DNA of 64,000 nt from the NCBI GenBank assembly GCA_000585075.1, contig JEMY01000001.1, forward strand, positions 62,001 to 126,000, given 5' to 3'. Positions 406 to 5,389 of the stretch are shown here, piece by piece. The stretch's first letter is position 1. Every line of letters starts with the position of its first letter. Below the pieces are notes generated by a model, which saw nothing but the letters and a program-made list of their open reading frames with translations, made no database searches and was not told where the DNA came from. The stretch is from Candidatus Accumulibacter regalis (GTDB lineage: Bacteria > Pseudomonadota > Gammaproteobacteria > Burkholderiales > Rhodocyclaceae). Both the position numbers and the translations under genes were made by a program.

Positions 406-1455
406 TCAGAGAAAGACCGGTTCCGGCACGAGTTCGACGGCGAAGCGTTCGCGTACGGCGGCCTGAACGGCCTGCGCCAACGCCAGCACGTCGGCGCCGC
501 GTGCGCCGCCGTGATTGACCAGCACCAGCGCCTGCTTGGCGTACATCCCGGCGCGGCCCAGATCCCTGCCTTTCCAGCCGCTGTGCTCGATCAGCCAGCC
601 GGCGGCGAGCTTGACCCGGCCGTCCTGCTGCGGGTAGCGCGGCAGATCGGGATGGGCAATGGCCAGGCTGGCGGCGACCGACGCGCTGACCACCGGGTTG
701 TGGAAGAAGCTGCCGGCGTTCGGCAGCGTCGCCGGGTCGGGAAGCTTGCGGCTGCGGACGCGGATCACCGCCGCGGCGATTTGCCCGGGCGTACAGGCGG
801 CGGGCGGGTTGCTGACCTGCTGGCGCTCGATTTCGGCGGCGAGGTCGCGGTAGGCGAGCAGCGGCTGCCAGGCTTTCGGCAGACGGAAGGTCACCCGGGT
901 GATCACCCGCTGCCCGCTCAGGTGCCAACCTTCCTGCTTGAAAACGCTGTCACGGTAGGCCAGGCGGCAGTCGTCGCGATCGAGGCGCAGGGCTCGGCCG
1001 GTGACCATGTCGATGGCTTCGACGGCGTGCAGGCGCTCGCCGACTTCCAGCCCATAGGCGCCGATATTCTGGATCGGTGCAGCGCCGACCGTGCCGGGAA
1101 TGAGCGCCAGATTCTCCAGGCCGGGCCAGCCCCTGGCCAGCGTCCACAGTACCAGCTGGTGCCAGTTCTCGCCGGCGCCCACGCGCAGGTACCAGGCGTC
1201 GTCGTCTTCGCCGATCAGCTGGCGACCGCGAATCGCCATGTGCAGGAGCAGGCCGTCGAAGTCGCCGGTGAGCACCAGGTTGCTGCCCGCACCGAGGACG
1301 AAGCGGCGACGGCGGTGATTGCCGGCGAGCGCTGCCAGTTGCGCGCTGGCGTCGATTTCGGCGAAAAACGCCGCCCGCCCCGGCAAGCGCAGCGTGGTCC
1401 GTGCGCCGAGGTCGACGTCGCGCACGACGAAGTCGGGCAGATCGTGCGCGCTCAG
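406..1455 (-). CDS. murB: UDP-N-acetylenolpyruvoylglucosamine reductase (MurB)
   Basis: FAD- and NADPH-dependent reduction of UDP-GlcNAc-enolpyruvate to UDP-MurNAc, the second committed step of peptidoglycan precursor synthesis in the cytoplasm. The FAD-binding GAGSN motif lies near residues 55-59, and the catalytic serine sits in NAGSFFHNP around residue 249. The C-terminus ends with the family's glutamate in VPEPVFL. With a start at 1455 the product is 349 residues, close to the type I MurB length of about 340. The start appears to be CTG: a GGGAGG sequence lies 7 bases upstream, and no ATG/GTG/TTG has a comparable site. The alternatives are a GTG at 1425 without a ribosome site, or an ATG at 1590 that would overlap metH by about 100 bases. 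It follows metH closely on the same strand. Confidence 0.93.
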   Translation of the reverse strand: MSAHDLPDFVVRDVDLGARTTLRLPGRAAFFAEIDASAQLAALAGNHRRRRFVLGAGSNLVLTGDFDGLLLHMAIRGRQLIGEDDDAWYLRVGAGENWHQLVLWTLARGWPGLENLALIPGTVGAAPIQNIGAYGLEVGERLHAVEAIDMVTGRALRLDRDDCRLAYRDSVFKQEGWHLSGQRVITRVTFRLPKAWQPLLAYRDLAAEIERQQVSNPPAACTPGQIAAAVIRVRSRKLPDPATLPNAGSFFHNPVVSASVAASLAIAHPDLPRYPQQDGRVKLAAGWLIEHSGWKGRDLGRAGMYAKQALVLVNHGGARGADVLALAQAVQAAVRERFAVELVPEPVFL

Positions 1456-1462
1456 CTTGCGG

Positions 1463-1468
1463 CCTCCC
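1463..1468 (-). promoter_or_regulatory. Shine-Dalgarno site selecting a CTG start for murB
   Basis: GGGAGG on the minus strand, 7 bases before the CTG at 1455 and inside the 34-base gap after the metH stop. It is the best ribosome-binding match near the murB N-terminus and argues for a non-AUG start. Confidence 0.5.
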
Positions 1469-1489
1469 GTTCGGCGCCTGCCCGTTTGC

Positions 1490-4400
1490 CTAGAGCAGAG
1501 GGGCCAGCCAGCGTTCGGCTTCGGCGACGCTGAAGCCGGCGCGCGCCGCCCAGTCTTCGAGCTGGTCGCGCGCGATCTTGCCGACGGCAAAGTAGCGTGC
1601 CTGGGGGTGCGCCAGATAGAAGCCGGCCACCGCCGCCGCCGGCGTCATCGCGAAATTCTCGGTCAGCCCCATGCCGGCGTTGGCCGGCGCGTCGAGCACT
1701 GCGAAGAGCGCGCGCTTGGCAGTGTGGTCGGGGCACGCCGGGTAGCCGGGCGCTGGCCGAGTGCCGCGGTAGTCCTCGCGGATCAGCGCTTCGCAGTCGA
1801 GCGTCTCATCGCTCGCGTAGCCCCAGTAGTCGCGCCGCACCTGCGCGTGCAACCATTCGGCACAGGCCTCGGCGAGGCGGTCGGCAAGCGCTTTCAGGAT
1901 GATCGCGTGGTAGTCGTCGTGCGCCGCGGCGAATTCGGCGAGCTTGCCTTCGATGCCGAAGCCGGCGCCGACGGCAAACGCCCCCAGCCAGTCCGGCGTA
2001 CCGCGCTCGGCGACGAAATCGCTCAGGCAGTAGTGGGGTTTGCCCGTCGGGCGCTCCTGTTGCTGGCGCAGATTGTGCCAGCTCATCAACTTCTCGCGGC
2101 GCGCTTCGTCGGCGTAGATCTCGATGTCGTCACCGACGGCGTTGGCCGGGAACAGGCCGAAGACGGCGTTGGCGCTCAGCCATTTCTCGGCAATGATCGT
2201 GTGCAGCATCTTCTGCGCGTCGGCATAGACTTCGCGCGCCGTCTCGCCCACCAGCGGGTCGTCGAGGATCTTCGGGAAGCTGCCGGCCAGATCCCAGGTC
2301 TGGAAGAACGGTCCCCAGTCGATGAACTCGGCGAGCGTTGCCAGGTCGATGTCACGCAGCACGTGCAGCCCCGGTTTGCGCGGCGCGAGCGGCCGGTAAC
2401 CCGCGTCGGGGTCAGCCTTGAAACGGTTGTCGCGTGCCGCGGCTAGGCCGACCAGCTGGACTCCCTTCTTGTTGGCGTGCTGTGCGCGCAGTTTTTCATA
2501 GTCGGCGGCGACCTCGCTCTTGAAGCTGGCCGCGTGGTCGATCGACAGCAGCTGGGTGACAACACCGACGGCGCGCGAGGCGTCGGGGACGTAGATCACC
2601 GGCCCGCTGTAGTTCGGCGCGATCTTGATCGCCGTATGCGCGCGGCTGGTCGTCGCGCCGCCGATCAGCAGCGGCACTGGCGGGCCGCCATCGGCGCCGT
2701 CGGCAAAGCCCAGGCGCTGCATTTCGGCGGCGACGTGACTCATCTCCTCGAGTGACGGGGTGATCAGGCCCGACAGCCCGACCGCCTGCGCGCCGTGTTC
2801 CCTGGCCGCGTGCAGGATCTTGTCGCAGGAGACCATCACCCCGAGGTCGACGACGTCGTAGCCATTGCAGCCGAGGACGACGCCGACGATGTTCTTGCCG
2901 ATGTCGTGAACGTCGCCCTTGACCGTGGCGACGACGATCTTGCCCTTGCTGCTCACCCCGGTACGCAGTTTCTCGGCTTCGATATAGGGGATCAGGTGGG
3001 CGACCGCCTGCTTCATCACCCGCGCCGACTTGACCACCTGCGGCAGGAACATCTTGCCGGCGCCGAAGAGGTCGCCGACGACGTTCATGCCGTTCATCAG
3101 CGGTCCTTCGATCACCGACAGCGGCGGCTTGCCCGCGGCTTCGAGCGCCGCACGGCATTCTTCGGTGTCGTCGACGACGAAGTTGTTGATGCCCTTGACC
3201 AGCGCGTGCGTCAGGCGCTGTTCGACCGGCAGCTCACGCCAGCTGAGATCGGGGCCGGTATCTTTGGCCTTGCCCTCCTTGACGGTCAGCGCGAACTCGA
3301 CCAGCGCTTCACCGGCTGCCGGGCTACGGTTGAGGACCACGTCCTCGACCTTGTCGCGCAGCGCCGGGTCGAGGTCGTCGTAGACGCCGAGCATGCCGGC
3401 GTTGACGATGCCCATCGACAGCCCGGCCTTGACCGCGTGATAGAGGAAGACGGTGTGGATCGCCTCGCGCACCGCGTCGTTGCCACGGAACGAGAAGGAG
3501 ACGTTGGAGACGCCTCCCGAGATCTGCGCACCGGGCAGATTGGCGCGGATCCACTTGCACGCCTCGATGAAGTCGACGGCGTAGTTGTTGTGCTCCTCGA
3601 TGCCGGTGGCGATGGCGAAGATGTTCGGGTCGAAGATGATGTCCTCGGGCGGAAATGCCGCCTGCTCGGTGAGCAGCTGGTAGGCGCGCGCACAGATTTC
3701 GGTCTTGCGCGCGTAGGTGTCGGCCTGGCCGCTTTCGTCGAAGGCCATCACCACGACCGCTGCGCCGTAGCGTCTGGCCAGCCGCGCCTGGCGCAGGAAT
3801 CCGGCCTCGCCCTCCTTCATCGAGATCGAGTTGACGATGCCCTTGCCCTGGATGCACTTGAGGCCGGCCTCGATGACCTCCCATTTCGACGAGTCGATCA
3901 TGATCGGCACGCGCGAGATGTCCGGCTCGCTGGCGATCAGCTTGAGGAAGCGCTCCATCGCCGCCTTCGAGTCGAGCATCGCCTCGTCCATGTTGATGTC
4001 GATGACCTGCGCGCCGTTCTCGACCTGCTGCCGGGCGACGGCCAGCGCGTCGTCGAAGCGGCCTTCGAGAATCATCCGTGCGAAGGCCTTCGAGCCGGTG
4101 ACGTTGGTCCGTTCGCCGACATTGACGAACAGCGATTCCTTGCCGACGTTGAAGGGTTCGAGTCCGGAGAGGCGCAGTTTCCGCTCGACCTGCGGCACGG
4201 CACGCGGCTTGACGCCGCTGACGCCCCTGCTGATCGCCGCGATGTGTTCGGGCGAGGTGCCGCAGCAGCCGCCGACGATATTCACGAAGCCCTGCCGGGC
4301 CCAGTCGGAAACTTCCGCGGCGAGCTGCTCCGGCGTCTCGTCGTAGCCGCCAAAGGCGTTCGGCAGCCCGGCATTGGGATACGCGGAGATGAAGCAGTCG

Positions 4401-5197
4401 CAAATGCGCGACAACTCTTCGACGTACTGGCGCAACTCAGCGGCGCCGAGCGCGCAGTTCAGACCGAAACTCAGCGGCCGAACGTGGTTCAGCGAGTTCC
4501 AGAAAGCCTCGGCAGTCTGCCCGGATAGCGTCCGCCCCGAGGCGTCGGTGATCGTTCCCGAGATCATCACCGGCCAGCGTCGTCCCACCTGCTCGAAGTA
4601 CTGCTCGACGGCAAACAGCGCGGCCTTGGCGTTCAGCGTGTCGAACACCGTCTCGACCAGGATGATGTCCACGCCACCCTCGCAAAGTCCGCGCACGGCT
4701 TCGCTGTAGGTGCCCACCAGTTCGTCGAAGCTGGTGTTGCGGTAGCCCGGATCGTTGACGTCCGGCGAGATCGACGCCGTACGCGACGTCGGCCCGAGGC
4801 CGCCGGCGACGAAACGTGGCCGGCTCGGGTCGCGGGCGGTGAACTCGTCGCAAACCGAGCGTGCGAGCTGGGCGCCGGCGACGTTCAGCTCGTGGACGAT
4901 GGCTTCGAGGTGGTAGTCGGCCTGCGAGACGCTGGTCGAGTTGAAGGTGTTGGTTTCGATGATGTCGGCGCCCGCCGTCAGATACTCGGCGTGAATTGCG
5001 CGGATCAGATCGGGCTGGGTGAGCACGAGGAGGTCGTTGTTGCCTTTCAGGTCGTGCGCGTGCCCGGCGAAGCGGCTGCCGCGGTAATCCGCTTCCTGCA
5101 GCCGATGGCGCTGGATCATCGTGCCCATGGCGCCGTCGAGAACGAGAATCTTCCTTTCGAGGCAGGCTTTGAGTTCGGCGGTACGGTCCGGCTGCAT
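1490..5197 (-). CDS. metH: Cobalamin-dependent methionine synthase (MetH)
   Basis: Transfers the methyl group of 5-methyltetrahydrofolate to homocysteine through methylcobalamin, giving methionine and THF. All four modules are present in 1235 residues: an N-terminal homocysteine/zinc domain with GGCCGTSP near 308; a pterin-binding domain ([13 protein letters not shown] near 365); a cobalamin domain with the DVHDIG histidine ligand near 760; and a C-terminal SAM-dependent reactivation domain with [12 protein letters not shown] near 1144. The ATG at 5197 has an AAGGAA site. An in-frame upstream ATG at 5230 lies in the terminator's U-tract and is not used. Expression is probably controlled by the upstream SAM-II riboswitch and terminator. 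murB follows 34 bases downstream. Confidence 0.98.
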
Positions 5198-5230
5198 GGC
5201 TATTCCTTGTCTACTGGTGCGGCGCTGCAA

Positions 5231-5265
5231 AACAAAAAACCCGTCGGCGCAAAGCTCGACGGGTT
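5231..5265 (-). terminator. Intrinsic terminator in the metH leader
   Basis: On the minus strand, AACCCGTCG (5265-5257) pairs perfectly with CGACGGGTT (5246-5238), followed at once by a U-rich tract. It ends about 34 bases before the metH ATG and just after the SAM-II aptamer, so it looks like the expression platform of an attenuator rather than the end of an upstream gene. Confidence 0.9.
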
Positions 5266-5274
5266 CTGATCTGG

Positions 5275-5332
5275 CTTCGCTTTAGCGGTATTTTTAACGC
5301 GCCCGCAATCTGTTTACGTCAAATCGGCGCGA
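5275..5332 (-). promoter_or_regulatory. SAM-II riboswitch aptamer upstream of metH
   Basis: Minus-strand sequence matches the SAM-II fold as I remember it from the metX-type aptamer. P1 is CGCGC (5331-5327) pairing with GCGCG (5302-5298). A GATTTGA loop segment follows the 5' arm, TTGC precedes the 3' arm, and the A-rich strand ends in GCTAAAG (5286-5280), which forms the pseudoknot. Order and spacing agree with the known structure. SAM is the end product of the methionine pathway that metH feeds. I recall SAM-II as mainly alphaproteobacterial with some betaproteobacterial cases. An intrinsic terminator follows, suggesting transcriptional rather than purely translational control. Confidence 0.85.
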
Positions 5333-5360
5333 ACCCGGCATGCTAGCCGGGCAGGACGCG

Positions 5361-5389
5361 AATCTACCCGTCGGGGAAAAGCTTGTCAA
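5361..5389 (-). promoter_or_regulatory. Sigma70 promoter of metH leader
   Basis: TTGACA (5389-5384), a 17-base spacer, then TAGATT (5366-5361) on the minus strand. The predicted start near 5354 places a GC hairpin, the SAM-II aptamer and the terminator in the transcript in that order. Confidence 0.8.

Follow-up and report, generated by a model that had tools for sequence, protein, structure and literature searches.

The leader of the cobalamin-dependent methionine synthase gene (metH) of Candidatus Accumulibacter regalis raises the question of how a SAM-II aptamer followed by an intrinsic terminator might control the gene behind it, and of whether such an arrangement is exceptional. In the stretch of 64 kb analysed here (hereafter the window), the minus strand carries, in this order, a consensus-like promoter, a SAM-II aptamer, a terminator hairpin with its U-tract, a ribosome-binding site with an ATG start codon and metH (Table 1). 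The elements lie at or very near the coordinates of the original prediction, which had been made from the letters of the sequence. Judged by sequence comparison, the leader is a real riboswitch of a known kind that is new in its exact place, and we consider it likely that it would act as a beta/gamma-type SAM-II transcriptional OFF switch for metH.

The SAM-II leader of metH

The SAM-II family model (SAM_alpha, RF00521) matches the metH leader above its gathering score, which bears out the aptamer that had been predicted there, and no other match in the window reaches an Rfam threshold. In the alignments the aptamer retains its P1 helix and its core motifs GAUUUG, UUGC and GCUAAA. The strands that pair to form the P2 pseudoknot are also present, in a register which we take to be that of the published structure, and there is little covariation of P2 to score because most P2 strand columns are invariant in the alignment (A1). 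The window leader and the other metH leaders of the genus have CAGAUUGC in place of the CAGCUUGC found in metH leaders of the order set, and this replacement may weaken P2. A second model (R1), which was built from 16 beta/gamma aptamers, scores the window aptamer at 75.1 bits, the window sequence being one of its 16 training rows. The window has one aptamer only, it is located before a methionine-synthesis gene, and SAM is presumably its ligand. The SAH riboswitch (RF01057), reported to precede metH in Comamonadaceae (PMC4239095), has no match at the gathering threshold in the window, metH leader included; the one match in the genome scores 62.4 bits (L346, G000:C38:59676-59748). The modest score of the window aptamer against RF00521 (38.5 bits, with a cut-off of 36) is what one might see in a decayed SAM-II relic that no longer responds to a ligand and happens to stand upstream of an ordinary terminator. 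Since these core motifs are all intact, and since the genus and order sets alike preserve the element together with its terminator, we find such a relic hardly credible.

Table 1. Features of the metH leader and gene, in window coordinates
Feature	Position	Strand	Evidence
Promoter-like TTGACA-17-TAGATT	5361..5389	-	10/12 matches, 0.1 expected in shuffles
5' hairpin P0 (5352-5346 with 5339-5333)	5333..5352	-	predicted folds; strand covariation
SAM-II (SAM_alpha, RF00521) aptamer	5259..5340	-	38.5 bits, gathering score 36, E 3.9e-5, model 1-79
P1 helix	5331-5326 with 5303-5298	-	within aptamer
P2 3' strand and following bases CGCUAAAGCGAAGC, proposed antiterminator	5274..5287	-	complementarity, covariation
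Intrinsic terminator hairpin, 9 pairs, 10-nt loop	5238..5265	-	fold -19.2 kcal/mol
Terminator 5' arm AACCCGUCG	5265-5257	-	letters checked
Terminator loop AGCUUUGCGC	5256-5247	-	letters checked
Terminator 3' arm CGACGGGUU	5246-5238	-	letters checked
U-tract UUUUUUGUUUU	5229..5239	-	letters checked
Likely RBS AAGGAA (5208-5203) and start ATG (5197-5195)	5195..5208	-	letters; spacing
metH, cobalamin-dependent methionine synthase	1490..5197	-	TIGR02082, NF007024

The promoter proposed earlier was recovered with the spacing claimed for it. Of 20 distinct metH leaders compared, 19 likewise have TTGACA upstream; here the -35 element alone is independent, because the leaders were picked by their match to a -10-like sequence. 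Judging from the -10 position, transcription would start at about 5354. The region between the promoter and P1 can fold into a hairpin, P0, which lies directly upstream of P1 and, to our knowledge, outside the SAM-II consensus. The two strands of P0 covary among 19 distinct metH leaders (the usable ones out of 28 with a recognisable -10, of which 20 are distinct and one is too short), their mean pairing being -9.92 as against -7.86 (sd 0.42) when permuted, with the observed value reached in 0 of 1000 permutations. RNAalifold found no structure in the P0 alignment, probably because the hairpin shifts along it, and the permutation test was used in its place.

The gene downstream had been called a methionine synthase, and it is metH: the open reading frame at 1490-5230 is a full-length match to TIGR02082 (1688.5 bits, cut-off 1010.85) and to NF007024 (2107.8 bits). 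Its start is likely the ATG listed in Table 1 and not the TTG at 5230 given by the ORF tool. The gene murB (window 406-1590, minus strand; 419.1 bits) comes directly after metH on the same strand, and the switch may therefore also affect this cell-wall gene.

Terminators and targets in related SAM-II leaders

The hairpin and T-run of the window agree with the U-tract terminator that had been proposed. The built-in terminator scan reported 0 terminators at the window leader (shuffles had a mean of 1.3), because it allows loops of up to 8 nucleotides and the loop here has 10. With our own finder and one score limit, 122 of 131 SAM-II aptamer matches have a terminator behind them, made up of all 23 in the genus set and 99 of the 108 in the order set outside the genus; on random segments the same finder calls a terminator in 26 of 546, and on shuffled leaders in 5 of 131. 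Terminators are common in this branch rather than exceptional. The original prediction was right about the SAM-II aptamer, the terminator, metH and the betaproteobacterial setting; the surprise that it implied at a terminator next to SAM-II does not hold, given these counts and reports of such terminators in 2005 and 2007. Putative intrinsic terminators were noted in many SAM-II representatives, with Bordetella bronchiseptica listed in the legend, and a near-consensus promoter was described as usually lying just upstream (Corbino 2005, PMC1273637). SAM-II was subsequently singled out as the sole aptamer which, in alpha- and betaproteobacteria, seems to occur most often with regulatory terminators, its mechanism being not yet established by experiment at that time (Barrick and Breaker 2007, PMC2258182). 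The metZ switch of Sinorhizobium (S.) meliloti is predicted to act by termination, and at high SAM the short terminated metZ RNA goes up, the mRNA goes down and promoter activity is also lower (Scheuer 2022, PMC9373788).

As these sources describe them, the known SAM-II leaders with terminators (Corbino 2005; Barrick and Breaker 2007; S. meliloti metZ) share with the window the aptamer core, the near-consensus promoter, the terminator placed between aptamer and gene, and a methionine gene as target. The window differs from known SAM-II in its beta/gamma-type sequence, which scores near or under the Rfam cut-off, in its metH target and in the added P0. The tandems of SAM-II with SAM-V, and of two SAM-II aptamers, described in PMC9481103 resemble it in having the first aptamer before a terminator, whereas the window has a single aptamer. 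In the library of papers searched, none on a riboswitch in Accumulibacter was found.

Elsewhere in the genome, a further SAM-II element lies before metX, is followed by a terminator and scores 34.3 bits, just below the cut-off. Counting this genome in each case, RF00521 matches 26 of 41 near relatives, 58 of 299 genomes of the phylum and, in the order, 178 of 399 genomes at an E-value of 0.001, with 70 of 399 above the cut-off. Model R1 matches 284 of the 399 order genomes, a count made at E 0.0001 and thus at another limit than that of RF00521, with rough E-values, with no decoy control and with some of the searched genomes having supplied training rows. The order set consists of the best-ranked RF00521 matches together with seven further loci and is no random draw. 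The search pattern was fitted by 23 of 24 genus loci and 103 of 116 order loci, and loci without it stand outside the tallies (1/24 genus, 13/116 order, 21/30 phylum and 4/116 pattern-scan).

The targets are largely genes of methionine or SAM synthesis. Behind the genus-set aptamers are metH (13) and metX (10), and behind the 108 order-set aptamers are metX (35), metZ (35), metH (9) and metK (5), with 24 having no name assigned; the pattern-scan set, some of whose loci are also in the genus set, contains 35 metH leaders. Curated models were used to check metH and murB of the window and one metX, one metZ and one metK, the remaining names being given by similarity to three reference proteins or by a sequence motif. 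The portions of the cited literature considered here do not name metH as a SAM-II target, yet with metH leaders in all three sets this target is not confined to the window. The SAM-II aptamers with terminators before metK are those of L045, L051, L218, L229 (confirmed as metK) and L230.

Some leaders depart from the common layout. A metX-type leader (L008:1501-1700) has the SAM-II 3' strand split by an insertion of about 120 bases with inverted repeats. Two loci (L145:3719-7790 and L176) each have a cluster of SAM-II-like aptamers spanning about 4 kb, in which tandem copies occur and a terminator is sometimes missing; even at E 0.5, part of these aptamers are absent from the Rfam matches. Another genome of the same order has, besides SAM-II, a SAM-V match below the cut-off (L039:600-666, minus strand; 33.4 bits, cut-off 41, E 0.12), and a start codon follows it at a short distance.

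Proposed pairing between the P2 3' strand and the terminator

Control of the terminator by the aptamer would require a strand common to both. Candidate strands were compared over a collection in which 286 loci gave 265 aptamer-like matches, 210 of them with a terminator score of at least 12 and 107 of these distinct; 96 of the distinct leaders, which are of the beta/gamma type and have a short linker, were used for covariation, and 95 for the profile. A first complementarity test with the terminator loop plus 3 nucleotides in all 107 leaders gave 0 of 200 permutations, and it was redone with the whole 5' arm and loop because some of the stems called by the finder ran on into the loop. In the 96 leaders, the P2 3' strand (around GCUAAAGCG) pairs with the 5' arm and loop of the terminator with a mean of -9.28, as against -5.92 for shuffled terminators. 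When strands are exchanged between leaders the mean is -8.43 (sd 0.15), and 0 of 300 permutations reach the observed value. For example, locus L003 has GCUAAAGCG in the aptamer and CGCUUUAG in the terminator, and locus L148 has GCUAAAACG and CGUUUUAGC in the corresponding places.

The same permutation applied to other segments reached the observed value in 75 of 200 cases for the P2 5' strand, 28 of 200 for the P1 5' strand, 40 of 200 for the P1 3' strand and 59 of 200 for J1/3. The P1 strands, the joining region and the GAUUUGA segment have no complementarity excess over shuffles in the 96 leaders. The P2 5' strand was rejected as a partner: its complementarity exceeds that of shuffles (-8.27 as against -6.43) but covariation is absent, and the stable GCAA loops of the terminators may explain the excess. 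Permutation tests of this kind ignore ancestry, an effect that is lessened and not removed by thinning, which gave 0 of 500 permutations with 70 leaders, 0 of 500 with 13, 2 of 500 with 6 and 74 of 500 with 3. A sliding profile over 95 leaders rises at the two P2 strands and at the bases that follow GCUAAA, and nowhere else. On folding the leaders minus the 3' arm of the terminator, a prediction made with no control, the last 10 nucleotides of the aptamer or the first 12 of the linker form at least 5 pairs with the terminator in 83 of 95 leaders; the other 12 fall below 5 predicted pairs, and some terminators, at the foot of the leader list, have little complementarity to the P2 strand. The few leaders of the alpha type that fit the pattern differ from the window in that the 5' arm of the terminator and the bases adjacent to it complement the P2 strand, whereas in the window the terminator loop does; the alpha-type complementarity is 6 to 10 nucleotides long in 6 of the 7 leaders printed, several of which are close relatives.

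The window offers two pairings of this kind, CGC(U)AAAGC with GCUUUGCG in a duplex of -9.4 kcal/mol, or GCGAAGC with GCUUUGC in a nascent fold of -12.1 kcal/mol. From the geometry of the joints between the helices, which look too short, the P2 pairing and the antiterminator pairing would be mutually exclusive. The complete terminator (-19.2 kcal/mol) outweighs the nascent antiterminator fold, and once its 3' arm is present it is the predicted fold even without a ligand; switching would therefore have to be kinetic, that is, a matter of timing during transcription. This stability also suits a reading in which a real aptamer is followed by a constitutive terminator that merely lowers read-through into metH, with SAM acting elsewhere, and there is a parallel in the S. 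meliloti metA terminator, which has been validated and for which no effect of SAM is predicted (PMC9373788). A constitutive terminator, however, needs no complementarity to the P2 strand, and such complementarity is conserved and covaries in the relatives. The hairpin moreover begins 13 nucleotides after GCUAAA, and the ribosome-binding site lies past it and outside the pseudoknot, all of which makes a constitutive terminator improbable to us.

Another strand that might have served as antiterminator is the G-rich CGGGUU (5337-5332) upstream of P1, which in the window is fully complementary to AACCCG (5265-5260) of the terminator arm, and a switch built on it would behave differently. The covariation of this strand with the other half of P0 (0 of 1000 permutations) led us to reject it. 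In L103 and L117 the G-rich strand is replaced by GAGGU together with GCCUC in P0, and the terminator arm is still AACCCGUCG; metH leaders of another type, such as L021 and L213, have no G-rich strand, yet have GACCCG in the arm. We therefore regard an antiterminator at this place as very unlikely.

For the OFF switch acting through the P2 3' strand, direct support comes from the aptamer, the promoter match, the terminator, metH, the conserved layout, and the complementarity and covariation of strand and terminator in relatives. RNA polymerase starting at about 5354 would first make P0 and then the aptamer. With SAM bound, the 3' strand CGCUAAAGCG would be held in the P2 pseudoknot, the hairpin would form undisturbed and transcription would stop at the U-tract. 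When SAM is absent, the P2 3' strand would pair with the nascent terminator loop GCUUUGCG before the second arm is made; this pairing of CGCUAAAGC with the loop would delay or prevent the terminator, giving read-through at low SAM and transcription of metH. SAM binding needs the P2 3' strand to be in P2, and SAM should therefore favour the terminator, as expected of an OFF switch for methionine synthesis. Both the direction of the switch and its kinetic control are what we infer from these pairings.

The metXZ element and Bp2_287

Two RNAs that have been described separately resemble the leaders aligned here. A 'metXZ' RNA element, which stands ahead of metX and metZ, was reported as new in 35 betaproteobacterial genomes and was described as having a pseudoknot, a terminator and conserved regions; it was kept separate from SAM_alpha, whose 28 genomes are placed in two alphaproteobacterial groups in the table of that study, and the account of the element names no ligand (Leyn 2014, PMC4239095). 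Its pseudoknot regions (1 with 4 and 2 with 6, region 5 pairing alternatively with 1 and 2) fit the aligned leaders, its consensus has an A-or-C position as does CAGMUUGC in these leaders, and its terminator and its metX and metZ targets in betaproteobacteria match them as well (PMC4239095). The difference lies in the antiterminator, for which regions 3 and 4 were guessed in PMC4239095, whereas covariation here points to the P2 3' strand. From this comparison, which follows the verbal description of the element rather than the figures, metXZ appears to be SAM-II. A literature search for metXZ together with riboswitch found Leyn 2014 only.

The second RNA is Bp2_287 (RF02424), a Burkholderia sRNA candidate near metZ and metX, for which a role as cis-acting element for methionine metabolism has been suggested (PMC3521395). 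It is listed as an sRNA and, as the matches run, lies on the strand opposite to the riboswitch. Of the 41 RF02424 matches listed, 25 loci were fetched, 24 of which score below the RF02424 cut-off, the one above it (107.5 bits) being located before metZ. The SAM-II pattern is found antisense to the RF02424 match in 24 of the 25 fetched loci, L287:1531-1602 included, the remaining locus (L300) having no such pattern. In L287, the locus above the cut-off, an extra hairpin separates P1 from GCUAAA, and this may account for the lack of an RF00521 match in that genome; R1 does match there (E 7.2e-5). RF02424 is probably a wrong-strand annotation of the riboswitch.

With good confidence, we propose that the metXZ element, Bp2_287 on its wrong strand and SAM-II are one SAM riboswitch family. 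In its beta/gamma branch the terminator loop would have become a decoy for the SAM-binding strand of the pseudoknot, to which it is complementary; this antiterminator design would be common to metX, metZ, metH and metK and would mostly escape the Rfam cut-off. The window itself adds metH as a target of a known switch. If the proposal is true, three annotations would be merged, a public RNA family would prove to be drawn on the wrong strand, and the RF00521 cut-off would be missing many members in the order. The element reported without a ligand in most of the betaproteobacteria that its authors studied would then gain a likely one. The comparison would also suggest how SAM-II can control a terminator, and it would offer a testable antiterminator for doing so.
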